This document shows positions 46,359 through 59,072 of a DNA stretch of 64,000 nucleotides, in pieces; within the stretch, counting starts at the first letter, position 1; the number at the start of each line of letters is the position of its first letter. The stretch covers positions 62,001 through 126,000 of the forward strand of contig PHCC01000003.1 in assembly GCA_002842215.1 (NCBI GenBank). Reading direction: 5' to 3'. A model generated the notes under the pieces. It saw only the letters and a list, made by a program, of their open reading frames with translations. It was not told where the DNA came from and made no database searches. The DNA comes from Betaproteobacteria bacterium HGW-Betaproteobacteria-9. GTDB taxonomy: Bacteria; Pseudomonadota; Gammaproteobacteria; Burkholderiales; Burkholderiaceae_C. The translations under genes were made by a program, and so were the position numbers.

Positions 46359-47629
46359 TCAGTGCGCCTGCCTTTGCAGGGAGGGAGATGCGCAGGGGTC
46401 ATACATGTGGTCACGGCGGAACGGGTACGCCGACTGCACACCGCGCATGGAACCACTGGCGGGGTTGCCATTGGGCCGAGAGGCCAGCAGCTGGTAGAGC
46501 GTCAGCCAGCCGCGTTCGAAGCTCATCGCGCAGCCCGCCAGGTAGAGCCTGTAGGCTCGCACCGAGGCTTCGCTGGTGAGTGCGCGCGCCTGCGCGTAGT
46601 TTTTCTCAAGTGCATCCGAGCAGTCCCACAAAGTCCGGGCGTAGTGGGGGCGCAGGTCCTCGGCATCCAGCAGCCCCAGGCCAGCGGCGCCAAGGTGCCT
46701 TACAACCCGGGACACATGGACCAGTTCGCCGTCGGGAAGGATGTGCCGCTCGATGAAATCGCCCATGCCGGCACCCAATTGGTGGTTGTCAACGTCACCC
46801 GCGGTGATGCCGTGGTTGAGAACGAGACCGCCGGGTTGGAGCAACTGCCTCAGATGGGCGAAGTAGCGACCCAGTTGGGCCATGCCCACGTGCTCGAACA
46901 TGCCGATGGACACGATACGATCAAAAGGCCCAACGTCCGTGAGGTCCCGGTAGTCCATCAGGTGCACGCCGACTTGACGTTGAAGCCCCTTCTGGTGGAT
47001 CAAGCGCTGCAGATGGGCGTGCTGGTTGCGTGAGAAGGTGATGCCGGTCGCCCGCACGCCGTGGTGTTCGGCAGCCCACAGCAGCAGGCCGCCCCACCCG
47101 GTGCCCACATCAAGCAGCCGTTGCCCTGGTTGCAGTTGCAGCTTGCGGCAGACATGCTCCAGTTTGGCCTGTTGCGCCTGGGCGAGCGTCATGGCACCGT
47201 TGGCATAGTAGGCGCAGGAATACACGCGCAGCGGATCCAGCCACAGTGCAAAGAAATCGTCACACAGATCGTAGTGGCTTTGCACTTGCCGGGCGTCGCA
47301 CTGTCGTTGGTGCAACCAGGCTGAGCGCGCTCGACGGATGAGTCTGGTCCAGATCGAAGGGTGGCCCTATTGGACAGGATCCCCAGCCAGTTCGGCGGCA
47401 ATGGTCATCACGTCACCCAGGCGGCCCTCGATGTCCAGATCTCCGCGCACGTAGGCATCCCCAGGTTGCCGATCCGCCCAAGGGCCAGCCAATTCAGAAG
47501 GCTCGGTTTGTGCAGTTTGAGGCGCACCTGCGCCCCCGCCTTTTCCGCCCGTCCTCCAGGCCATTCCAGCGCCAGAGGAAGCGAGAGGCGCTCCATGCGC
47601 GACTCGATCCGGTTTGCAAGCGCGGTCAT
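46359..47629 (-). pseudogene. cfa: Cyclopropane-fatty-acyl-phospholipid synthase, frameshift plus nonsense codon
   Basis: The enzyme adds a methylene bridge to membrane lipid double bonds using SAM. Three pieces together make one full gene of ~420 codons. Piece 1 (47629 to ~47465) reads MTALANRIESRMERLSLPLA up to GRIGNLG. After a run of four C on the plus strand (47459-47462) homology moves to another frame, DAYVRGDLDIEGRLGDVM, as if one base were lost. That frame meets TAG at 47367-47369 and then continues to the catalytic part, with HYDLCDDFFALWLDP, the SAM motif LLDVGTGWGG and MFEHVG. The part from 47315 to 46359 could still be translated as 318 residues from a TTG. It follows the Fnr-family gene by 18 bases. 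Confidence 0.75.
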
Positions 47630-47647
47630 GGCCGGGTGCGGGTGGCA

Positions 47648-48496
47648 TCAAGCCGCGAGACTGAGCGAGTGCGCGTGCCTGCCCTGCGCGGGCAGGCGGT
47701 GAACCGGTGTTCGAGCGCGCGCGGGCACGGGTGCGTCCAGTTGCCGCCGCGTGCTGCGAGCGAAGGTGCCGAGACCGTCCATGTCCAGGATCTCGACCTC
47801 ACGAGCGCACACATGGACCAGACCCAGTGTAGAGAGGGTGGTGAAGCTGCGACTGACAGTTTCGTGCGCCACACCCAGCAGGCTGGATATCTCGCGTCGA
47901 CCCATCCGCAGGAGAAAGCGGCGCGGCGACTGACCGCAGTCCTCCATGCGCCGGGAATGCTGGATCAGGAACCGTGCGAGCCGCACCTCGGACGCGACCG
48001 CCGCCATGATGTCCACGAGTTCGCGGCTGCGCGCCAGGGTGAGGCTTCCGGCGTGCTGCAACATCAGGCCAAAGGCCGGAAGCGCCTCACACAGGCGCGG
48101 TATGTCGCACTTCGGGACCACATAGACGGCAGACTCCTCCAGGGCGGAAATGGCCACCGGGTACGTTGCCATGCAAAGCGCGTCAAATCCCAGCACCTCG
48201 CTCCGGATGGCAAAGGCCAGCACCTGTTCGTAGCCGTCCTTGTCAGTTCGGAAAACCTTGAAAGTGCCTGCGCAAACGAAGAAGATGGCATCGGCAGGTG
48301 CGCCCTCGTGCGCCAGGCTCTCGCCGGCATGCACCTTGCGAAAGCTCACAGGCACGCGCGCAGCGATATCCGAAGAGCCGACGGGAACGCCGGACATCTG
48401 CAACAAATCGGCGATGGTGCTCCCAACAGACTTCTTGGGTGTGGGGCCTCGCGGAGTTCGCTGGTCGGTGATCTGGATCGGGTCCGGGCAGTTCAT
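47648..48496 (-). CDS. Crp/Fnr-family transcriptional regulator without the Fnr iron-sulfur cysteines
   Basis: The 282-residue protein has a cyclic-nucleotide-type beta barrel (VHAGESLAHEGAPADAIFFV, EVLGFDALCMATYPVAISAL) and a C-terminal winged helix (MGRREISSLLGVAHETVSRS). The recognition helix carries E-x2-S-R, the same contacts by which Fnr reads TTGA half-sites, which fits the TTGAG sites found around it. The N-terminal cluster of three cysteines in Fnr is absent; C3 and a few scattered cysteines remain. It may respond to another signal, as Dnr (NO) or redox-type members do. A tail of ~50 residues after the helix-turn-helix is arginine/alanine-rich. Start at 48496 has GGAG. Confidence 0.88.
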   Translation of the reverse strand: MNCPDPIQITDQRTPRGPTPKKSVGSTIADLLQMSGVPVGSSDIAARVPVSFRKVHAGESLAHEGAPADAIFFVCAGTFKVFRTDKDGYEQVLAFAIRSEVLGFDALCMATYPVAISALEESAVYVVPKCDIPRLCEALPAFGLMLQHAGSLTLARSRELVDIMAAVASEVRLARFLIQHSRRMEDCGQSPRRFLLRMGRREISSLLGVAHETVSRSFTTLSTLGLVHVCAREVEILDMDGLGTFARSTRRQLDAPVPARARTPVHRLPAQGRHAHSLSLAA

Positions 48497-48830
48497 CGGG
48501 TGGCTCCTGGAGGGGACTTCTTGACGTTGTCTGAAGTTCTTAGCATGTGACAAACCGCGCCATCCTGCTATCAGACTGGACATTCAGATGAGCTCGGAAA
48601 CAGAGCTATTGGTCAGGGAAATTTACCTATACAGGGTAGGAGTATTCCGAAAGACAGCCTTCGAATTCAACGACGATCTCGTCATTGCCGACCTTTTGTA
48701 TCCGGAAGTCACGAGAATCGGGCTCAAGACTGCGGGTTTCGCAGGCACCCGGCGGCGTTGTCTTGACCAGGGCTGCCACTGCAACACACCCATGACCCCC
48801 TCCCGCACATTGAGACGAAAGGGTCGCGAG
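48497..48830 (+). promoter_or_regulatory. 334-base intergenic region with duplicated element, copy A (48542-48660)
   Basis: This gap separates the divergent Fnr-family and alcohol dehydrogenase genes. Bases 48542-48660 resemble 51154-51272: shared blocks include AGCATG, GACAAA, CATTCAGATGA, CGGAAAC and TAGGAGTATTC in the same order. AGGAGTA is a NarL-type heptamer (TACTCCT on the other strand), preceded by TACAGGG at one base spacing. Open reading in the plus frame continues back through this region, but it has no coding character. Confidence 0.6.
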
Positions 48831-49859
48831 ATGAGCCACACGATGCGCGCCATGGTGCTGGATCGGCCCGGTACCCGCCTGCGCCTGGTGCACCGCGCGG
48901 TGCCCGCGCCCGGCGCCGGGCAGATCCTGATCGCGGTGGAAGCCTGCGGTGTGTGCCGCACCGACCTGCATCTGGTGGACGGTGAGCTACCCGACCCGGT
49001 GCTGCCCATGATTCCCGGCCACGAGATCGTCGGCCGGGTGGTCGCGCTCGGGGCCGGTGTGCCGGGCTGGCAGGCCAGCCAGCGTGTGGGTGTGCCCTGG
49101 CTGGGCTGGACCTGCGGTCACTGCCGTTTCTGCCGCGCTGGGCGGGAAAACCTGTGCGAGCAAGCGCGCTTCACCGGCTACCAGATCCCTGGTGGCTACG
49201 CGCAATACACCGTGGCCGATGCGCGCTACTGCTTCGCGCTGCCCGAAGAACCCGCGCCCGAGCACCTGGCGCCGCTGCTGTGCGCGGGGCTGATTGGCTA
49301 CCGCGCGCTGCGCATGGCCGGCGACGCGCAGCGGCTCGGGGTGTACGGCTTTGGCGCGGCGGCGCACCTGATCACCCAGGTGGCGCGGCGCCAGGGCCGC
49401 GAGGTGTTCGCGCTCACGCGCCCGGGCGATGCCGAGAGCCAGGCGTTTGCGCGCCGCCTGGGTGCGGCCTGGGCCGGTGGTTCGGATGAAACGCCACCCG
49501 AAACGCTGGACGCAGCCCTGATCTTTGCTCCGGCGGGCGCGCTGGTGCCCGCCGCGCTGCGGCATCTGGACCGGGGCGGCTGTGTGGTGTGCGCGGGCAT
49601 CCACATGAGCGACATTCCTTCGTTTCCCTACGCCTGGCTCTGGGGCGAGCGCTCGCTGCGCTCGGTGGCCAACCTGACGCGCCGCGATGGCGACGAATTC
49701 TTTGAACTGGTGCGGCAGGCGCCGCTGCAGACCGAGGTGCATGTGTTTGCCCTGGAGCAGGCCAACGAGGCGCTGGACCAGTTGCGCTGCGGCGCTTTCC
49801 AGGGCGCGGCGGTGCTGCGCATGGACGCACCGGTTGGACGGGGGCGAGTCAGTCCCTGA
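48831..49859 (+). CDS. Zinc-dependent alcohol dehydrogenase
   Basis: The 342-residue enzyme is a medium-chain alcohol dehydrogenase. Catalytic zinc ligands are in ACGVCRTDLH and GHEIVG, the four structural zinc cysteines in CGHCRFCRAGRENLC, and the coenzyme-binding fold in GVYGFGAAAHLITQVA. It resembles the zinc ADHs of fermentative metabolism. I took ATG 48831 after AAGGG; ATG 48843 and ATG 48792 are alternatives. It could reoxidise NADH when oxygen is short. Confidence 0.88.
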   Translation: MSHTMRAMVLDRPGTRLRLVHRAVPAPGAGQILIAVEACGVCRTDLHLVDGELPDPVLPMIPGHEIVGRVVALGAGVPGWQASQRVGVPWLGWTCGHCRFCRAGRENLCEQARFTGYQIPGGYAQYTVADARYCFALPEEPAPEHLAPLLCAGLIGYRALRMAGDAQRLGVYGFGAAAHLITQVARRQGREVFALTRPGDAESQAFARRLGAAWAGGSDETPPETLDAALIFAPAGALVPAALRHLDRGGCVVCAGIHMSDIPSFPYAWLWGERSLRSVANLTRRDGDEFFELVRQAPLQTEVHVFALEQANEALDQLRCGAFQGAAVLRMDAPVGRGRVSP

Positions 49860-50469
49860 GCTGCGCGATCACCTCGTCGTCCTCCACCTGGGGAAAGTCG
49901 CGGTAGAACTGGCCGACGGCCTGGAAGTCTTCGGGGGCGTGCAGGCAGACCACCTCGTCGGCCAGGGGCTGGACCAGCGCCAGCGCTTCGGGCGACGACA
50001 CGGGCACGGCGCAGACCAGTCGGGCCGGATGGTGTTGGCGCACGCTGTGCAGCGCGGCGATCATGGTCGCGCCGGTGGCCAGGCCGTCGTCCACCACGAT
50101 CACCACGCGACCGGCCGGGTCGATGGGGGTGCGCAGCGGCGAGTACATCGCGCGGCGCGCATTGAGCGCCCCGAGCTGCTGGCGCTTTTCCTCGGCGATG
50201 TAGTGTGGGTCGGCGCCGACCTCGGCCGCATAGGGCGCGAGGGTGCTCCAGCCGCTCTCGTCGATGGCGCCGATGGCCAGCTCTGGCTGGTAAGGCGCAT
50301 GCAGCTTGCGCACCAGCACCACGTCGAAGTCGCCCTTGAGCAGACCGGCCAGGGTCTTGCCCATGGGCACCGCGCCACGGGGAATGGCGAGCACCAGCGG
50401 TTTCTGGCCCCGGTAGGCGCCCAGGCGGGGCGCCAGCTGGCGGGCGGCGTCTTCGCGGTCCTGGAACAT
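49849..50469 (-). CDS. Phosphoribosyltransferase family protein (first of a pair)
   Basis: The 206-residue protein has the type I PRPP-binding motif VVIVVDDGLATGAT and the N-terminal segment LVLAIPRGAVPMG. It resembles the phosphoribosyltransferase-like proteins of hypoxia and dormancy regulons, such as mycobacterial Rv0571c, whose substrate is unclear. AAGGAG precedes the ATG at 50469. Its 3' end overlaps the 3' end of the convergent alcohol dehydrogenase gene by 11 bases. Confidence 0.85.
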   Translation of the reverse strand: MFQDREDAARQLAPRLGAYRGQKPLVLAIPRGAVPMGKTLAGLLKGDFDVVLVRKLHAPYQPELAIGAIDESGWSTLAPYAAEVGADPHYIAEEKRQQLGALNARRAMYSPLRTPIDPAGRVVIVVDDGLATGATMIAALHSVRQHHPARLVCAVPVSSPEALALVQPLADEVVCLHAPEDFQAVGQFYRDFPQVEDDEVIAQLRD

Positions 50470-50480
50470 GGCGGCTCCTT

Positions 50481-51056
50481 TCAAACGGCCCGCCCTGCGG
50501 GCGCCGGCTGCAGCAACTGGATGCTGAAGTCCGGCTCGTAGGGCGGCACATGGCATTCGACGATGTCGGTGGGCGCGACCTCCAGCCGCAGGCCCACCAC
50601 GTCGGCCCGCAGCGGCAAGGTGGTCACGCAGCGGTCGGCCAGAACCACGAGGCGCACGGCCGCGGGCCGTTTGCGGGTCAGCCAGTCCACCACCTTCAGC
50701 GCGGAGTGACCGGTGTACAGCACATCGTCCACCACGAGCAGGGTGTGGTCGCGCAGGTCCAGCGCGGCGTGGTGCGGCGCTTCGGCGAACTGCGTGTCGG
50801 GGAACAGCAGCGTGAGGTCGTCGGCGTAACGCTTGACCGACAGGTCCAGCCGCAGTGGTGGGGCCAGGCCATGGCGTTGCACCATGCGCTGGGTCAGGCG
50901 GTCGGCCAGCGGCGCGCCCCGGCGCAGAACGCCCACCACCGCCACCGGGCCGCGGCCGTGCAGCAGCCCAGCCGCCTGCTGTGCCATGCGGTCCAGGACC
51001 TTGTCGAGGCTGGCGCTGTCGTAGAGACAAGTTCGGGTACCTTGGGGTGCGTTCAT
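50481..51056 (-). CDS. PyrR-like phosphoribosyltransferase (second of a pair)
   Basis: The 191-residue protein has the PRPP loop LLVVDDVLYTGHS and an upstream VGVLRRGAPLADRL, as in PyrR and uracil or hypoxanthine phosphoribosyltransferases. PyrR proteins both bind pyr RNA and act as weak uracil phosphoribosyltransferases; a pyr operon is not nearby, so the role is uncertain. It lies 11 bases upstream of the other phosphoribosyltransferase gene, so the two are cotranscribed. Start at 51056. Confidence 0.82.
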   Translation of the reverse strand: MNAPQGTRTCLYDSASLDKVLDRMAQQAAGLLHGRGPVAVVGVLRRGAPLADRLTQRMVQRHGLAPPLRLDLSVKRYADDLTLLFPDTQFAEAPHHAALDLRDHTLLVVDDVLYTGHSALKVVDWLTRKRPAAVRLVVLADRCVTTLPLRADVVGLRLEVAPTDIVECHVPPYEPDFSIQLLQPAPAGRAV

Positions 51057-51385
51057 GGGTGTGTCCGCGGCACTGCCTTGGCGGCCATCGTTGTATCTCC
51101 GCAATTCATCAGGATTCCCTCAGGTGTCTGGCTGGCAGGGACAGTCAACCCTCAGCATGAGACAAAACGCCCATCCCGGCTATCGGACTCGGCATTCAGA
51201 TGAACCCGGAAACGGTGGCATGGGTCGGGAGTTTTTTCCGATACCGATTAGGAGTATTCTGGAATGCAGACCTTGGGACTTCCCTGGTCATTTGTCTGCA
51301 ATGACTTTGATCAATCTACCCGCAGATCAGCACTCCAAAAAAAAGGCGGGGTCCCACTATGATGAAAATCTGAAGGAGATCAGGC
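51057..51385 (+). promoter_or_regulatory. 329-base intergenic region with duplicated element, copy B (51154-51272)
   Basis: This gap lies between the divergent phosphoribosyltransferase and kinase genes. Bases 51154-51272 are the second copy of the element at 48542. Here the heptamer pair is TACCGAT-T-AGGAGTA within ATACCGATTAGGAGTAT, a near-palindrome with AGTAT/ATACY ends, fitting a NarL/FixJ-type regulator. The copies are about 80% alike by eye in their first 60 bases. A long A-run (51337-51344) follows further downstream. Confidence 0.6.
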
Positions 51386-53563
51386 ATGCACAACTCCCGT
51401 CTTTCCGAGGACCCCCTGGAGCTGGATTCTGTGATCCAGTCCGGTGCGATCCATGCGGCACTGGAAGGCATCGTCACCATCGACGAGGCGATGCACATCG
51501 TGATGATCAACCCGGCCGCGCAGCGCATGTTTGGCCGGTCGGCCGCGCAGGTGTTGGGCCAGGACCTGTCGGTCCTGATTCCGGGTGCCTTGCGCGAACT
51601 GCACACGGCGCATGTGCAGACGTTCATGGCCTCTGGCGTGGTCGAACGCCCGATGCGCGCGCTGGGAGCGCTGGCGGGTTTGCGCGCGGACGGCTCGGAG
51701 TTCCCGCTGGAGGCCGCGATCTGCCAGGTGGATACCTCCATCAAGCTGGGTGGCCATCGCTACTTCACAGCGATGCTGCGCGACCTCAGCAACGAGCAGA
51801 AGCTCGCGGCCCAGATCGACCAGCTCAACCGCCGGATGCGCACGCTGTTTGACTTGCTGCCCGTGGCGATCTGGATCACGGAAGGTGAGTCGGTGGTCTA
51901 TGCCAACAGCGCCTGTGCCCGGCTGTTTGGCGTGGCGGACCGCGAAAGCCTGACCGGGCAGTCGATCTATGCGCTGCTGCACCCAGAAACCCACGAGCAG
52001 GTGCGCGAAAAGGTGGCCCACGCGCTGACCTCAGAGGAAGAGGTGCTCCCTATGCACGGGAAGATCGCCCGCCGTGACGGCTTGTCCCGCGATGTCGAGA
52101 TGGTGGTCGCGGCGCTGCCGGACCACTCGCGCACCCTGGTGCAGATGGTGCTCTCCGACATCACGAAGCAGTCGCAGGAACGACGGGCGCTGCTGGAGTC
52201 GAAGCGCACTCTGCGGAACCTAGCGGCGAGCCTGGTGGACACGCGGGAAGAGGAACGGCGGCGCATTGCCCGCGAGCTGCACGATGAGTTGGGCCAGCGG
52301 CTCACGGCCCTGAAGCTGGAGTTGTCGGCGCTGGAGAGGATCGGAACGCCTGGCATCCTTTCGACGCGCACGCAATCCATGATCGAGATGGTGGACGACA
52401 CGGTGGCCGCCATGCGGCGGATTGCCCTGGATCTGCGCCCGTTGATGCTGGATGACCTGGGCCTGAGTGCCGCCATCGAGTGGCTGGCCCAGGAAACCGA
52501 GCGACGGTCAGGGTTGCAGGTGGCGCTGCGCTGCGACCCGCTGCCAGACCTGATACCGCAGAAGGTCCTGACGGCGCTTTACCGCATCGTGCAGGAGGCC
52601 CTGACCAACATCGTGCGCCACGCACGCGCCACCCGCGTGGTGATTGCCATGGCCCACACGGGGTCGTTCATTGAGTTGCATGTCGAAGACAACGGCGACG
52701 GGTTTCCCGAGCAGCCGCTGCAGGCGTCGGGAAAATCGTTTGGCCTGATCGGCATCCGCGAGCGCGTGCTCATGCTCGGCGGGGAACTGAACTTGGGCAA
52801 CCTGCCGGGGGGGCGGCGCGAGCATGGTCGTGACACTGCCGCTGTCCGGTGCCGACGATGCACACGGAGATTTCCAATGAAAGAGACCTCGATGAATATT
52901 TTGCTCAACCTCCTGCTGGTTGACGACCACACCGTGGTGCGCGAAGGACTCAAGCGGCTGATCGACCCGCAGGCCAACCAGTGGAGCATCACCGAGGCAG
53001 GCACCGGCTTTCATGCGCTCGAATGCCTGCGCCGCCAACCCTTCGACCTCGCCATCGTCGACTTGTCCATGCCGGGCATGAGCGGGCTGGAACTGACGCG
53101 CCGCATCAAGAGCGAGTTTCCGTCGGTGGCGGTGCTGGTGCTCACGATGCACAGCGAGGAGCAGTACGCCATCCGTGCGCTGCAGGCCGGCGCCAATGGT
53201 TTTGTGACCAAAGACAGTGCAGCCACCGAACTGGTGGCCGCCGTGCGCAAGGTCGCTTCTGGCGGTGTGTTCCTCTCTGCCCAGCTGGCCGAACGGGTGG
53301 TGCAGCAACTCAACGGCCATACCCCGGTGCCCGACCTCCAGGCACTGACCAACCGGGAGCTCGACATCCTGCAGCGCATCGTGAACGGTCAGCGACCGGT
53401 GGACATCGCGGATGCGCTGCACCTGTCTATCAAGACCGTGAGCACGCACAAGAAGCGGATCCAGGAAAAACTCAAGCTCGACAGCACGGCCGCGCTGGTC
53501 CGTTTCGGTTTGGAGCATCAACTGGGCAGCGATGTCATCGGGTCCCCGATCAGCGACCCTTGA
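51386..53563 (+). CDS. PAS sensor histidine kinase fused in frame to NarL-type response regulator by a G7 tract
   Basis: As sequenced this is one 725-residue frame. It contains two PAS domains (about residues 20-130 and 150-260), a HisKA_3 dimerisation helix with the phosphorylated histidine at residue 299 (ARELHDELGQRLTALKLEL), an ATPase domain (EALTNIVRHA, VEDNGDGFPE, GLIGIRERVLMLGGELNLG), then a receiver and LuxR helix-turn-helix. At 52807-52813 a run of seven G joins the parts. With six G the kinase would end in the normal way, GGGASMVVTLPLSGADD..., at a TGA (52878-52880) overlapping the regulator's ATG. So the fusion may be a real hybrid, a slippage-prone switch or an assembly error. AAGGAGATCAGGC precedes the ATG. 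Confidence 0.8.
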   Translation: MHNSRLSEDPLELDSVIQSGAIHAALEGIVTIDEAMHIVMINPAAQRMFGRSAAQVLGQDLSVLIPGALRELHTAHVQTFMASGVVERPMRALGALAGLRADGSEFPLEAAICQVDTSIKLGGHRYFTAMLRDLSNEQKLAAQIDQLNRRMRTLFDLLPVAIWITEGESVVYANSACARLFGVADRESLTGQSIYALLHPETHEQVREKVAHALTSEEEVLPMHGKIARRDGLSRDVEMVVAALPDHSRTLVQMVLSDITKQSQERRALLESKRTLRNLAASLVDTREEERRRIARELHDELGQRLTALKLELSALERIGTPGILSTRTQSMIEMVDDTVAAMRRIALDLRPLMLDDLGLSAAIEWLAQETERRSGLQVALRCDPLPDLIPQKVLTALYRIVQEALTNIVRHARATRVVIAMAHTGSFIELHVEDNGDGFPEQPLQASGKSFGLIGIRERVLMLGGELNLGNLPGGRREHGRDTAAVRCRRCTRRFPMKETSMNILLNLLLVDDHTVVREGLKRLIDPQANQWSITEAGTGFHALECLRRQPFDLAIVDLSMPGMSGLELTRRIKSEFPSVAVLVLTMHSEEQYAIRALQAGANGFVTKDSAATELVAAVRKVASGGVFLSAQLAERVVQQLNGHTPVPDLQALTNRELDILQRIVNGQRPVDIADALHLSIKTVSTHKKRIQEKLKLDSTAALVRFGLEHQLGSDVIGSPISDP
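52877..53563 (+). CDS. NarL/FixJ-family response regulator (separate reading of the fused 3' part)
   Basis: Read by itself this is a 228-residue response regulator. The receiver has LLVDDHTVVREGL, the phospho-acceptor aspartate in AIVDLSMPGMSG and the lysine in FVTKD; the output domain is LTNRELDILQRIVNGQRPVD and IKTVSTHKKRIQEKL. The ATG at 52877 overlaps the kinase TGA that would appear with one G fewer upstream; an ATG at 52892 is also possible. The natural target would be the NarL-like heptamers upstream of the kinase and the alcohol dehydrogenase. Confidence 0.75.
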   Translation: MKETSMNILLNLLLVDDHTVVREGLKRLIDPQANQWSITEAGTGFHALECLRRQPFDLAIVDLSMPGMSGLELTRRIKSEFPSVAVLVLTMHSEEQYAIRALQAGANGFVTKDSAATELVAAVRKVASGGVFLSAQLAERVVQQLNGHTPVPDLQALTNRELDILQRIVNGQRPVDIADALHLSIKTVSTHKKRIQEKLKLDSTAALVRFGLEHQLGSDVIGSPISDP

Positions 53564-53708
53564 ACGCGCGATCGGGTCAACGGGTTCCCCGGTTCGGGCG
53601 CAGCGCTTGCGGATTTCGTTGGGGCGCGTGTTCGAAGGGGGCGACAATGTCTACCCCGTGTGGTCTATTCAGCCACCAAGGCGCGTCACCTCCAGTACGG
53701 CGTCAGCC

Positions 53709-54356
53709 TCAAGCGCCGGTCGGCGCGGGCAGGTGTCGCAGGAACCACTCGGCCGCGAGCGCGGCCACACTCTCCAGCGCGCCAGGCTCTTCGAACAGGT
53801 GGGTAGCGCCAGGCACCACTTCCAGCCGCTTGGCGCAGCGCAGCTGGCGCAGCGCCCAGTGGTTGAGCGCCAGCACGTCCACGTCGTCGCCGCCCACGAT
53901 CAATAGCGTTGGCGCCTGCACCAGAGGCAGATGGTCCTGGGCAAGATCGGGACGCCCGCCGCGGGAGACCACCGCGGCGATGTCCTGGGGCCGATCCGCC
54001 GCGGCCACCAGCGCGGCTGCCGCACCTGTGCTGGCGCCGAAAAGGCACACCGGCAAACCCGAGATGTCCGCGCGTTGCCTGGCCCACCGCAAGGCCTCCA
54101 GCACACGCTGGCCCAGCAGCGCGATGTTGAACACCTTGCGCGGGTCCTGCGCTTCGTCCGGTGTCAGCAGGTCGAACAGCAGGGTGGCCAGGCCTTGCTG
54201 TTGCAGTGCGCGGGCCACCCAGCGGTTGCGCCCGCTCAGGCGGCTGCTGCCGCTGCCGTGCGCGAACAGCACCAGGCCCCGAGCCTGCGCCGGCACCGAA
54301 AGATCGCCCTGCAGCGCGGACTCCCGCAACAACACGGGCTCGGTGTCGATGGCCAC
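53709..54356 (-). CDS. Dienelactone hydrolase-like alpha/beta hydrolase
   Basis: The 215-residue protein is a small alpha/beta hydrolase. The nucleophile serine lies in FGASTGAAAA, the acid in VGGDDVDV and the histidine in GATHLFEEPG, so the triad is complete; the oxyanion region is FAHGSGSSRLSGRN. The substrate is unknown. It starts one base after the stop of groEL and is surely cotranscribed with it. Similar hydrolases accompany phosphoribosyltransferases in stress islands. Confidence 0.85.
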   Translation of the reverse strand: MAIDTEPVLLRESALQGDLSVPAQARGLVLFAHGSGSSRLSGRNRWVARALQQQGLATLLFDLLTPDEAQDPRKVFNIALLGQRVLEALRWARQRADISGLPVCLFGASTGAAAALVAAADRPQDIAAVVSRGGRPDLAQDHLPLVQAPTLLIVGGDDVDVLALNHWALRQLRCAKRLEVVPGATHLFEEPGALESVAALAAEWFLRHLPAPTGA

Positions 54357-54357
54357 A

Positions 54358-55986
54358 TCAGAGCTCCGGCATGCCGGCCCCGGGCATGCCCATGTCCTGT
54401 TGGACCCTGGGTGCCAGCGCGTTGGCGATCATGCAGTCCGTGGTCAGCACCAGGCTGGCGATGGAGCCTGCGTTTTGCAGGGCCAGACGGGTGACCTTGG
54501 CCGGGTCGATCACGCCCATCTGCAGCAGGTCACCATAGACGCGCGTGGCCGCGTTGTAGCCGTAGGCGGGCTCGCTCGAATCGTCAATACGCTGCAGCAC
54601 CACCGAGGGTTCGTCGCCCGTGTTGCGGGTGATGCAGCGCAGCGGTTCCTGCAGCGCCTGCGCAATGAGGCGGATGCCCGAGTCTTGGTCCAGTGAGGTG
54701 CCGTGCAGCTGCGCCAGCACGCGCCGTGCACGCAACAACGCCACACCGCCGCCGGACACAATGCCCTCTTCGATGGCCGCGCGCGTGGCGTGCAGCGCAT
54801 CCTCGACGCGGATCTTGCGTTCCTTCAGCTCGGTCTCGGTGGCCGCACCCACCTTGATCAGGGCCACGCCACCCGAGAGCTTGGCTATGCGCTCTTCCAG
54901 CTTTTCCTTGTCGTAGTCGCTGGTGGCCAACTCGCGCTCCTTGCGGATGCTGGCCACGCGCTCCTGGATCGCTTGCGTGGTGCCGGCGCCCCCGCTCACC
55001 GTGGTGTCGTCCTTGCACACCTCCACCCGCTTTGCGCGCCCCAGATCGGCGAGCTTGGCTTTCGCCAGCGTAAGGCCGAGTTCGTCGCTGATCACGGTGC
55101 CGCCGGTGAGCACGGCGATGTCCTGCAGCATGGCCTTGCGCCGGTCGCCAAAGCCGGGGGCCTTCACCGCGCAGGCCTTGAGGGTGCCACGCACGGTGTT
55201 GATCACCAGTGTGGTCAGCGCTTCGCTGTCGATGTCTTCGGCCACCACCAGCAGGGGCTGGCCGCTCTTGACCACCTCTTCCAGCAAGGGCAGCAGGTCT
55301 TTCAGCGAAGACAGGCGCTTGTCGTACAGCAGGATGGCGGCGTTTTCCAGCGTGGCGCTCTGTCGCTCGGCATTGTTGATGAAGTAGGGCGAGAGAAAAC
55401 CGCGATCGAACTGCAGGCCTTCCACCAGCTCGCTGCTCAGGCCGGAACCGTCTTCAATGGAAATGGCGCCCTCGCGGCCCACGCTGTCGATCGCGCGCGC
55501 CAGCAACTCGCCGATGGAGCGGTCGTTGTTGGCCGAGATGGAAGCCACGTGCGCGATCTCCTGCGAGCTGGCGCAAGGCCGCGCCATGCGACGCAACTCG
55601 GCGACCACCGCTTCGATGGCCTGCTCCATGCCGCGCTTGAGGTCCATCGGGTTCATGCAACCGGCCAGGTAGCGCAGACCCTGCGGGATCATGGCGTGCG
55701 CGAGCACGGTGGCGGTGGTGGTGCCGTCCCCCGCCATCTCGCTGGTGCGTGATGCCACCTCCCGCAGCAACTGCGCGCCCATGTTCTCAAACCGGTTCTC
55801 CAGCTCCACCGACTTGGCCACCAGCACGCCGGAGTTGACGATCTGTGGCGGGCCATGGTCGCGGTCCAGGATCACGGTGCGCCGGCGCGGGCCGATCGTC
55901 ACCTTCACGGCCTCGGCCAGGGCGTCCACGCCATGCCGAATTTTGTCGCGGGCTTCTTCGCGAAAGAGCAATTGTCCGGTGCTCAT
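54358..55986 (-). CDS. groEL: Divergent, solitary GroEL-type chaperonin
   Basis: This 542-residue paralogue of the 60-kDa chaperonin keeps the ATPase core ([34 protein letters not shown]). It differs from housekeeping GroEL in the N-terminal ATP loop ([20 protein letters not shown] in place of the usual GPKGRNVVLD) and in its C-terminus, which ends [11 protein letters not shown] rather than in GGM repeats. No groES is adjacent. It would have to work with a GroES encoded elsewhere, or alone. An Fnr-type site lies upstream. Confidence 0.92.
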
Positions 55987-56064
55987 GCGGAAATCCTTCG
56001 ACCCCGTTGGCGAGATGGGTGTGACAGCACTCGGGCCATTCTTTCACCGGAGCTTTGTCCAGAA

Positions 56065-56078
56065 TTGAGCATGCGCAA
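56065..56078. promoter_or_regulatory. Fnr-type site TTGAG-N4-CGCAA upstream of groEL
   Basis: TTGAGCATGCGCAA lies so that, on the minus strand, the hexamer AGAATG begins 29.5 bases from its centre (56042-56037). This is the same hexamer at the same distance as in front of usp. The predicted transcript start near 56030 leaves a 44-base leader before groEL. Confidence 0.6.
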
Positions 56079-56128
56079 CGGACGTGCAGTTGGTTCCTCC
56101 CTCGGTGCGTGGCCCGTGCATCCGTCGC

Positions 56129-56410
56129 TCAGTGCCTGACCTGCTCGACGCTACTGCCGGAAGCCGGATCGCCGTTCTCCTGCAGTACCTGTGCCTCGGC
56201 CGTCAGCCAGTCGTCGAGTTCGTACCCTGGCTCTCCACCGCGGGCTTCGTAGCAGGCGTAGGCGGCTTCGCGTATGGCCTGCTCGCGATCAAACGGCGCA
56301 GCAGGCACCCCGGTTTCCTGGGCGCTTTCGTCGGAATCCGGTGCGGTCGTCGCTTGCATGACCTTTGTTGCGCGGGCCGGGGTCTTGGGGCTTGCATGTT
56401 GCCTTGCCAT
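56129..56410 (-). CDS. DUF2934 family protein
   Basis: The 93-residue protein has a basic N-terminus (ARQHASPKTPARATKV) and a DUF2934 domain (FDREQAIREAAYACYEARGG and YELDDWLTAEAQVL). The domain is a short helical module of unknown function often found near stress genes. AGGAG precedes the ATG at 56410. The Fnr-type site at 56507 with TATGTT at the right spacing probably drives it. Confidence 0.8.
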   Translation of the reverse strand: MARQHASPKTPARATKVMQATTAPDSDESAQETGVPAAPFDREQAIREAAYACYEARGGEPGYELDDWLTAEAQVLQENGDPASGSSVEQVRH

Positions 56411-56744
56411 TTTGAGTCTCCTGAGAAAAAAGGTGGTTGGACGTGCAGGGCGTCGCGGTGCCATGCCTGCACCGGTTGAACATAGGTCGCTGATTCCGCC
56501 CGTTTGTTGCGTCGGCTCAATGAGTTGGCATCTGCAAGGCACTCAGCCGATGCACGGTAGTGCTTCGCCACCCAAAGACGGACTGCCAGAGGCCAAGGCC
56601 ACTTTCACGGATGGAGGTGGGTTGGTGTCGGTGTTTTTGTTGAGCACACGCAATGCCCCGGAGCTTCCACGCATCCAACATTTCTCGCCTGAAGTGGTTC
56701 CCTGAACGCGTTTCAGCTTTCGCAACCTTTTGAAGGAGATTTAT
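56411..56744. promoter_or_regulatory. 334-base divergent region between DUF2934 and hsp20 with Fnr-type site at 56507
   Basis: TTGCG-TCGG-CTCAA at 56507-56520 reads TTGAG-CCGA-CGCAA on the minus strand, the same form as the groEL site. A minus-strand TATGTT (56484-56479) begins 29.5 bases from its centre and predicts a 62-base leader for the DUF2934 gene. For hsp20 no matching -10 is seen at the equivalent distance; that gene may have its own promoter in the rest of this gap. Confidence 0.5.
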
Positions 56745-57170
56745 ATGAACGAACTCAAGGTCCGCGACCTCTTTGCTGCCGATCCCTTTGAAGATGCCTT
56801 CCGCAATTTCCTGCGTCCCTGGGTCTCCCGAGGCGCCGGGTCGGCACCCGATATCAAGGTCGAACTGGTTGAAAGCAACGGCGACTACAAGCTCAAGGCG
56901 GAGATTCCGGGTGTTCGCAAGGAAGACATCCAGATCGACATCGACGACAACAAGGTCAGCATCTCGGCCGAGGTGAAGAAAGAAAGCGAAGAGAAGAAGG
57001 ACGACCGTGTCATCCGCTCGGAGCGGCAATACGGCTATGCCAGTCGCAGCCTCTGGCTGGACAAACCGGTGGACCAGTCGAAGTCCGTTGCCAAGTACGA
57101 AAACGGTGTGCTGGAGCTGACGCTGCCCAAGAAGGCCACGTCCACCGGCAAGCGACTCACGATTTCCTGA
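56745..57170 (+). CDS. Hsp20 family small heat shock protein
   Basis: The 141-residue chaperone holds the alpha-crystallin domain: DIKVELVESNGDYKLKAEIP, GVRKEDIQIDIDDNKVSISA and the C-terminal GVLELTLPKK. It prevents aggregation of unfolding proteins without ATP. A model ribosome site (GAAGGAG) lies 8 bases before the ATG at 56745; an in-frame ATG five codons upstream overlaps that site and is not used. Confidence 0.95.
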   Translation: MNELKVRDLFAADPFEDAFRNFLRPWVSRGAGSAPDIKVELVESNGDYKLKAEIPGVRKEDIQIDIDDNKVSISAEVKKESEEKKDDRVIRSERQYGYASRSLWLDKPVDQSKSVAKYENGVLELTLPKKATSTGKRLTIS

Positions 57171-57221
57171 GCACCCAAGACGGCGGGGGGCTCGGACCTC
57201 GGGCTGGCTGCTGACCTGCGC

Positions 57222-59072
57222 TCAGGCCGGGTGCGTTGCGCCGACAGGCGCCTCGGCACCGGGCACGCCGGTCAAGGTGCGCAGAGCGTCTGCATCCAGC
57301 GTTTCACGTGTCAGCAGCGCGCGTGCACAGCGCTCCAGCAACTCACGCCGGTCCTGCAAGAGGTGGGTGGCCTGTTCGAAGGCCTGCATCACGGTGCTGC
57401 GCACCGCTTCATCGATGCGTTGGCGGGTCTCGGGCCCTGGCTGCCAGCCGTTCTGCACCAGGCCGGGCACGTCCAGAAAGGCTTGGCGCTGGGGCTCGTG
57501 GGCGACGTGGCCCAGTGACTCGACCATGCCGTAGCGCGTGGCCATGTCGTGCGCGATGTTGGTCGCCTTGACCAGATCGTCGGCGGCGCCGGTGGACAAC
57601 TGGCCAAACACCAGCATCTCGGCAGCCCGGCCGCCGAGCAACACGGTGATCTTGTGCTCCAGTTCTGCTTTGGACATGAGGAAACGGTCTTCGGTGGGGC
57701 GCTGGATGGTGTAGCCGAGTGCGCCGATACCACGCGGGATGATGGACACCTTGTGCACGGTGTCGGTGCCCGGCAGCGCCATGGCGACCAGCGCATGGCC
57801 CATCTCATGGAACGCCACCACCTCGCGTTCGCGCGGGTTGAGCACGCGGTTCTTTTTCTCCAGCCCGGCCACGATGCGTTCGACGGCCGTGGTGAAGTCT
57901 TCCAGCGCGATGTCGGGCGCGCCGCGCCGCGTGGCGGCGAGCGCCGCTTCGTTGCACAGGTTCGCCAGGTCGGCCCCCGAGAAACCGGTGGTGAGCTGCG
58001 CCACCTGCTCCATGTCCACCTGGGGCGACAGGCGGATTTTTCGGGTGTGCACTTTCAGGATTTGAACCCGGCCAGCCTTGTCGGGCCGGTCCACCAGCAC
58101 CTGGCGGTCAAAGCGGCCAGCGCGCAGCAGGGCCGGGTCCAGCACCTCGGGCCGGTTGGTGGCGGCCAGCAGCACCAGGCCTGAAGAGCTGTCGAAGCCG
58201 TCCAGTTCGGCCAGCAACTGGTTCAGCGTCTGCTCGCGTTCGTCGTGGCCGCCGATGGGCGAAACCGCGCCGCGCGCGCGGCCCAGCGCATCGAGTTCGT
58301 CGATGAAGATGATGGCGGGCGCCCGGGTGCGCGCCTGCTCGAACAGATCGCGCACGCGGGCTGCGCCCACGCCCACGAACATCTCCACGAATTCGCTACC
58401 CGAGATGCTGAAAAACGGCACGCCCGCCTCGCCGGCCACGGCCTTGGCCAGCAGGGTCTTGCCGGTGCCCGGTGGCCCCACCAGCAACACACCCCGAGGC
58501 AGCCGCGCACCCAGCCGGCCGCTGCCCTGCGGGTCTTTCAGGAATGTCACGATCTCCTGCAGCTCGGCCTTGGCTTCGTCCACACCGGCCACGTCGGCAA
58601 ACGTGACGCCGGTGTCCTTCTCGACATAGACCTTGGCGTGGCTCTTGCCAATGCTCATGAAACCACCCGCACCCTGCCGGTCCAGCACGCGACGGATCAG
58701 GAAGAACCACACCCCGACAAACACCAGGCCGGGCACGATCCACGACAGCAGGTCCCGCAATAGGGTGCTTTCCACCACGCGTCGGTAGGGCACACCGTGC
58801 CGGGAAAGTCGTTCGGCCAGGTCGCCCTCGACGCGGTTGGCGACGATGGTCGTCTTGCCGTCGGGTTCACTCGTTTTCAGCGTGCCGGTGAGCGTGGTTT
58901 CGCCGACGATCACCTCGGCCACGCGGCCGTCGGCCAGCGCCTGTTCGAACGCGCTGTAGGGCACCGCCTCCACCGTGCGCGCGGTTTGCCACGCGGACTG
59001 AACCCACGTCAGGGCCAGCAACGCCAGCAACCAATAGCCAAAATTCCATTGAATCTTCTGATGGGGTTGCAT
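57222..59072 (-). CDS. ftsH: FtsH-type membrane ATP-dependent zinc metalloprotease (paralogue)
   Basis: The 616-residue protein has an N-terminal membrane helix ([16 protein letters not shown]), a periplasmic segment, a second helix ([19 protein letters not shown]), an AAA module with [19 protein letters not shown] and the second region of homology, and the zinc motif HEMGH (HEAGH in most FtsH). It is probably a second FtsH beside the housekeeping one, which I would expect elsewhere with rrmJ/folP. Its company with Hsp20 and GroEL suggests protein quality control under stress. Confidence 0.9.

Follow-up and report, generated by a model that had tools for sequence, protein, structure and literature searches.

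The window analysed here is a stretch of 64,000 nucleotides (G000:C55:62001-126000) from a 5.26-Mb draft assembly of 57 contigs, and the genome groups with Hydrogenophaga. On the plus strand, a single open reading frame (ORF) at 51386-53563 encodes 725 amino acids and carries a histidine kinase in frame with a response regulator. Domains scoring above the Pfam cut-offs in this ORF are PAS (two stretches), HisKA_3, HATPase_c, Response_reg and GerE, which makes the first part a kinase of the PAS/HisKA_3/HATPase type and the adjoining part a NarL-type regulator. The kinase part with its two PAS stretches spans 51386-52806, with HisKA_3 at 52253-52441 and HATPase_c at 52571-52813 (Pfam positions converted to window coordinates), and the 228-aa regulator, a receiver followed by a LuxR-type helix-turn-helix, occupies 52877-53563. 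The pair lies in a stress-type cluster (46359-59072), where the neighbours include an Fnr/Crp-type regulator, a zinc alcohol dehydrogenase, two phosphoribosyltransferase-domain proteins, a hydrolase, GroEL, Hsp20, FtsH and a cyclopropane synthase-like protein. As a lead only, this cluster may resemble the low-oxygen-activated locus of Burkholderia cenocepacia (PMC6127331).

Between the two parts lies a tract of seven G (52807-52813, plus strand) in the context CCTGCC-GGGGGGG-CGGCGC. The preliminary description had claimed that the kinase frame enters the regulator through this tract, and the sequence, the 725-aa ORF and the Pfam domains bear this out. Beyond the tract, the fused frame encodes a linker, RREHGRDTAAVRCRRCTRRFP (52814-52876), which is unlike all of the kinase endings at the junctions of the relatives examined. 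Separate translation of 52815-52880 in the other frame gives GASMVVTLPLSGADDAHGDFQ followed by a stop; this is the usual end for kinases of this sort, the relatives end alike, and its frame differs from that of the kinase upstream. The TGA of this ending (52878-52880) overlaps the regulator ATG (52877-52879) as ATGA, so that the typical kinase C-terminus and the overlap that had been described are indeed present. The regulator keeps its own ATG (52877), and a GGAG at 52866-52869, read by eye 7 bases 5′ of the ATG, is a probable ribosome-binding site; judging from these sequence elements, translation of the regulator from this start probably persists.

Following the proposal to count the G residues in related strains, relatives were compared, and the tract of the nearest one is shorter by a single G, with kinase and regulator in separate genes. 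This relative, G015, which like G035 and G100 belongs to the same genus as the window genome, aligns with 92% DNA identity over 2,155 columns in which the sole gap is the extra G. Its tract is G6, its 496-aa kinase ends with a stop that overlaps the regulator ATG as TGATG, and its regulator is about 91% identical to that of the window. The named related loci were L031 (a Hydrogenophaga MAG), L032 (H. aromaticivorans), L033 (H. taeniospiralis) and L034 (Simplicispira hankyongi). The run is interrupted as GGGTGG in H. aromaticivorans and as GGAGGG in H. taeniospiralis, and the junction stretch of Simplicispira is without any run of five G. Junctions were picked by a protein motif and identical copies were dropped, giving 19 in total and 18 other than that of the window; three of the 18 (L021, L028 and L029) look paralogous, and the motif missed L034, which was read separately, and L037, the junction of which was left out of the count. 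A recognisable kinase ending was found in all 18, and the G run is six in G015 only and five or fewer in the rest. Compared with the close relatives examined, this genome alone has its kinase ending out of frame, and the domains, gene order and short overlap of the pair are those of the relatives. Since the relatives keep two genes, the fused frame has the look of an accident of recent date, or of an error in the sequence, and not of a built-in switch. A conserved slippage signal was rejected because relatives do not preserve an uninterrupted run of G at this place.

Two other features of the related loci were observed. In 5 of the 10 related loci examined, a second PAS-HisKA_3 protein lies between the kinase and the regulator (L032:5555-6727, L035:5486-6658 and L010:178-1479, with ORFs in L005 and L006 too). 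HATPase_c was not found in any of the three interposed proteins scanned (Pfam, E up to 0.001), and the N and G1 boxes are absent by eye from the L032 copy; from sequence, this protein, which is absent from the window, is possibly a conserved pseudokinase. In addition, the regulator at L035:6789-7474 and the kinase at L037:3376-4864, both from MAGs, are each split over two frames, which shows that draft MAGs elsewhere can likewise have this operon broken in frame.

A wider search covered 399 genomes of the family, an even sample of the larger group, with E up to 1e-60, and matched 55 of them. There were 24 matches spanning both kinase and regulator, and 22 of these contain one or more stops; among the 22, the gene structure was inspected for G167 alone and consists of two genes. 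The two stop-free matches are the window itself and a distant paralogue in G163, a 330-contig draft, with 36% identity and a 726-aa ORF (L171:758-2938, on G163:C126). The kinase ending of this paralogue, GGGTRVVLVVPLHG, lies in a frame other than that of the 726-aa ORF, at the same glycine loop and without a long G run, and G163 therefore also looks frame-broken. A single chain that joins a complete kinase core to a receiver and is conserved among relatives was not found: the kinase end is replaced in the window, and the relatives have separate genes. In a plasmid search, the matches in 32 records were partial and distant, and none had one place covering 80% of the query. A 19-base pattern around the tract also matched one viral contig, which shows no kinase homology.

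We also asked how readily such an ORF would be open. The regulator frame is -1 relative to the kinase, and thus a base added near the kinase end leads into the regulator unless a stop intervenes. In 22-codon windows taken from long ORFs in a portion of this genome, the corresponding frame had no stop in 6,459 of 10,030 (64%). In G015 and H. taeniospiralis, too, the fused frame is free of stops, whereas that of Simplicispira contains one. Given the gene overlap and the proportion of comparable stretches that are stop-free, the open fused frame needs no special cause. As for the tract, GGGGGGG has 8 matches (6 tracts) in the window compared to a shuffle mean of 19.05, and at least 8 matches were seen in 97 of 100 shuffles, so that G7 is below chance in the window. 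A change in tract length does alter the reading frame of the gene, as at phase-variable loci, and what is notable about the G7 is this effect on the frame rather than its length.

The fused frame substitutes the end of the ATPase domain. In alignments to VraS (4gt8), the G015 kinase aligns to residue 232 of 238 with the final strand included; the window kinase aligns to residue 217, which is the tract. The AlphaFold2 model of the G015 control has a final hairpin (strands 209-214 and 220-227) with block pLDDT values of 83-87 at residues 201-230, compared to 31-40 at residues 211-240 of the window form, and the mean pLDDT values for the two models are 74.8 and 60.5. The alignments behind the models are shallow, with 5 and 10 rows, and in that of the window the tails of the relatives are scattered, which by itself lowers confidence there. 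The domain thus lacks its last strand in both the VraS alignment and the model, and these suggest that the kinase is probably damaged, being inactive or weak.

Upstream of the tract, the kinase codons remain constrained. The dN/dS was 0.36 between the window and G015 and 0.24-0.30 in pairs among four relatives. With H. aromaticivorans as the outgroup, 30 changes on the window branch are nonsynonymous and 18 synonymous, compared to 23 and 26 on the G015 branch (Fisher p 0.15 for the contrast); a further 9 are unassigned. This slight, non-significant nonsynonymous excess suggests that the gene has not long been free of selection, and an old pseudogene was rejected on the constraint and the branch counts.

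As a control for the assembly, alignments to relatives covered 295,342 bases of the same genome (C55, which holds the window, C21 and a small part of C20). G/C tracts of at least 6 differed in length from at least one relative in 10 of 59 cases and A/T tracts of at least 6 in 10 of 68, which indicates that a length change or error at such G/C runs is not unique. Among the ten G/C tracts of exactly 7, the one at 52807-52813 is the only one that differs, and hence such runs are not a general source of error in the assembly. Comparing the ORFs of relatives with this genome gave 16 broken-frame lines at 14 junctions, which is near background since the reverse comparison gave 19. A homopolymer of at least 6 was present at only one of the 14 junctions, the kinase-regulator site itself. 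Two others have G5 runs: C55:52623 lies, by eye, barely beyond the border of a gene, and at C55:95715 this genome and H. taeniospiralis read alike. Twelve chosen sites were aligned; two had no single alignment across, and most of the other 10 adjoin starts or stops by eye. Two reference-free codon-usage scans at homopolymers were dropped, the first as too strict and the second because it mis-scored the site itself, having returned many frame changes, presumably many of them at gene borders. Mismatch-phase scans, which gave 0.53 at the site and 0.53 for G015 and thus no clear classification of the site, were replaced by the ORF comparison. Another of the 14 junctions, at C55:157204 outside the window, is a 29-base deletion; it breaks an ORF whose counterparts in G015 and H. 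taeniospiralis are intact (~94% protein identity). In this aligned sample, homopolymers do not generally break reading frames of the assembly; this favours a real mutation somewhat, although a single error may be present.

Taken together, these results are best explained by an operon in which the kinase and regulator genes overlap by a few bases and in which a glycine-codon run would have expanded by one base, from G6 to G7, as a private and recent event, most likely through slippage. The 725-aa ORF would be a by-product of the -1 frame of the regulator; the kinase would have lost the last strand of its ATP-binding domain and probably its activity in whole or in part, and the regulator would probably still be translated from its own ATG. 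We hold this account with slightly better than even confidence. It is supported by the two genes and the missing G in G015, by the kinase endings and shorter G runs of the 18 other junctions, by the stops in 22 of the 24 spanning matches, by the constraint on the upstream codons, by the expected openness of the fused frame and by the constant length of the other nine G/C tracts of 7; against it, the nonsynonymous excess on the window branch also fits a somewhat older loss, the base may be an error, and 10 of the 59 G/C tracts differ in length from a relative. That the strain truly has G6 and two separate genes, the extra base having arisen in sequencing or assembly, is quite possible, and to this we give appreciable weight, though short of even. 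The G6 of the nearest relative, the persisting constraint on the kinase codons, the break of the G163 draft paralogue in the same glycine loop and the split genes of L035 and L037 all fit such an error, and the single homopolymer among the 14 frame junctions in about 295 kb argues against it. Mutation or error, the difference is very probably a private one-base change and not a switch: the locus is a case of an ordinary frameshift, or of an error, within a known kind of two-component gene pair.

Reversible phase variation, in which G6/G7 slippage turns the kinase on and off within a population, has a precedent in bvgS of Bordetella pertussis, where C6 gives full-length BvgS, C7 gives a truncated, non-functional product, and both occur mixed within a culture (PMC1891110). 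A G6 run does exist in the sister species G015; however, other bases interrupt it in H. aromaticivorans and H. taeniospiralis, and among the 18 other junctions only one reaches six. G7 is also less frequent in the window than expected by chance, and Bordetella G/C runs exceed chance only above 8 (PMC1891110); we consider such switching improbable. About as improbable, or a shade more so, is a G6/G7 toggle in free-living Hydrogenophaga by which a stress-linked system alternates between separate proteins and a form in which the regulator hangs on an inactive kinase. The preliminary description had proposed that the tract could switch between two separate proteins and one hybrid. Its observation of a kinase ending in the other frame holds, and the nearest relative has G6 and two genes, but a switch to a functional hybrid finds no support, as the run is not kept in relatives, the ATPase end is lost and the open frame is to be expected. 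The sequence error that it gave as the simple alternative keeps the appreciable weight stated above. A functional hybrid kinase, made directly or via slippage, would agree with an ORF that is open throughout with its domains present, and with the open fused frames of G015 and H. taeniospiralis. The replaced end of the ATPase domain, the VraS alignment that stops at the tract, the low pLDDT of the substituted block (from shallow alignments with scattered tails) and the stop in the Simplicispira frame make it very improbable indeed.

If the mutation is real, it would add to the sensor kinases disrupted by a single base in a homopolymer, and it would warn that indels of this sort can mimic a fusion protein where two genes overlap. 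Were it reversible, bvgS-type switching would extend to an environmental genus, and the toggle, if true, would be a bvgS-like switch that fuses the partners as well; no paper combining Hydrogenophaga with phase variation was found in the literature search. Hybrid histidine kinases, like the 725-aa ORF, combine a kinase with a receiver in a single chain. In true hybrids the ATPase domain ahead of the receiver is complete, whereas here an unrelated linker takes the place of its end. The closest likeness in domains, order and short overlap is the pair of a HisKA_3 kinase (NarX/DesK/VraS type) and a NarL/LuxR-type regulator, which in relatives is encoded by two adjacent genes, and from which the window differs in that the kinase ending is out of frame. 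As in bvgS, a G/C run in a sensor-kinase gene expands from 6 to 7, with a shift of the frame and loss of the C-terminal part. The bvgS product, however, is truncated and its alleles were shown to be mixed in cultures (PMC1891110), whereas here the frame continues into the regulator and one genome represents the species.
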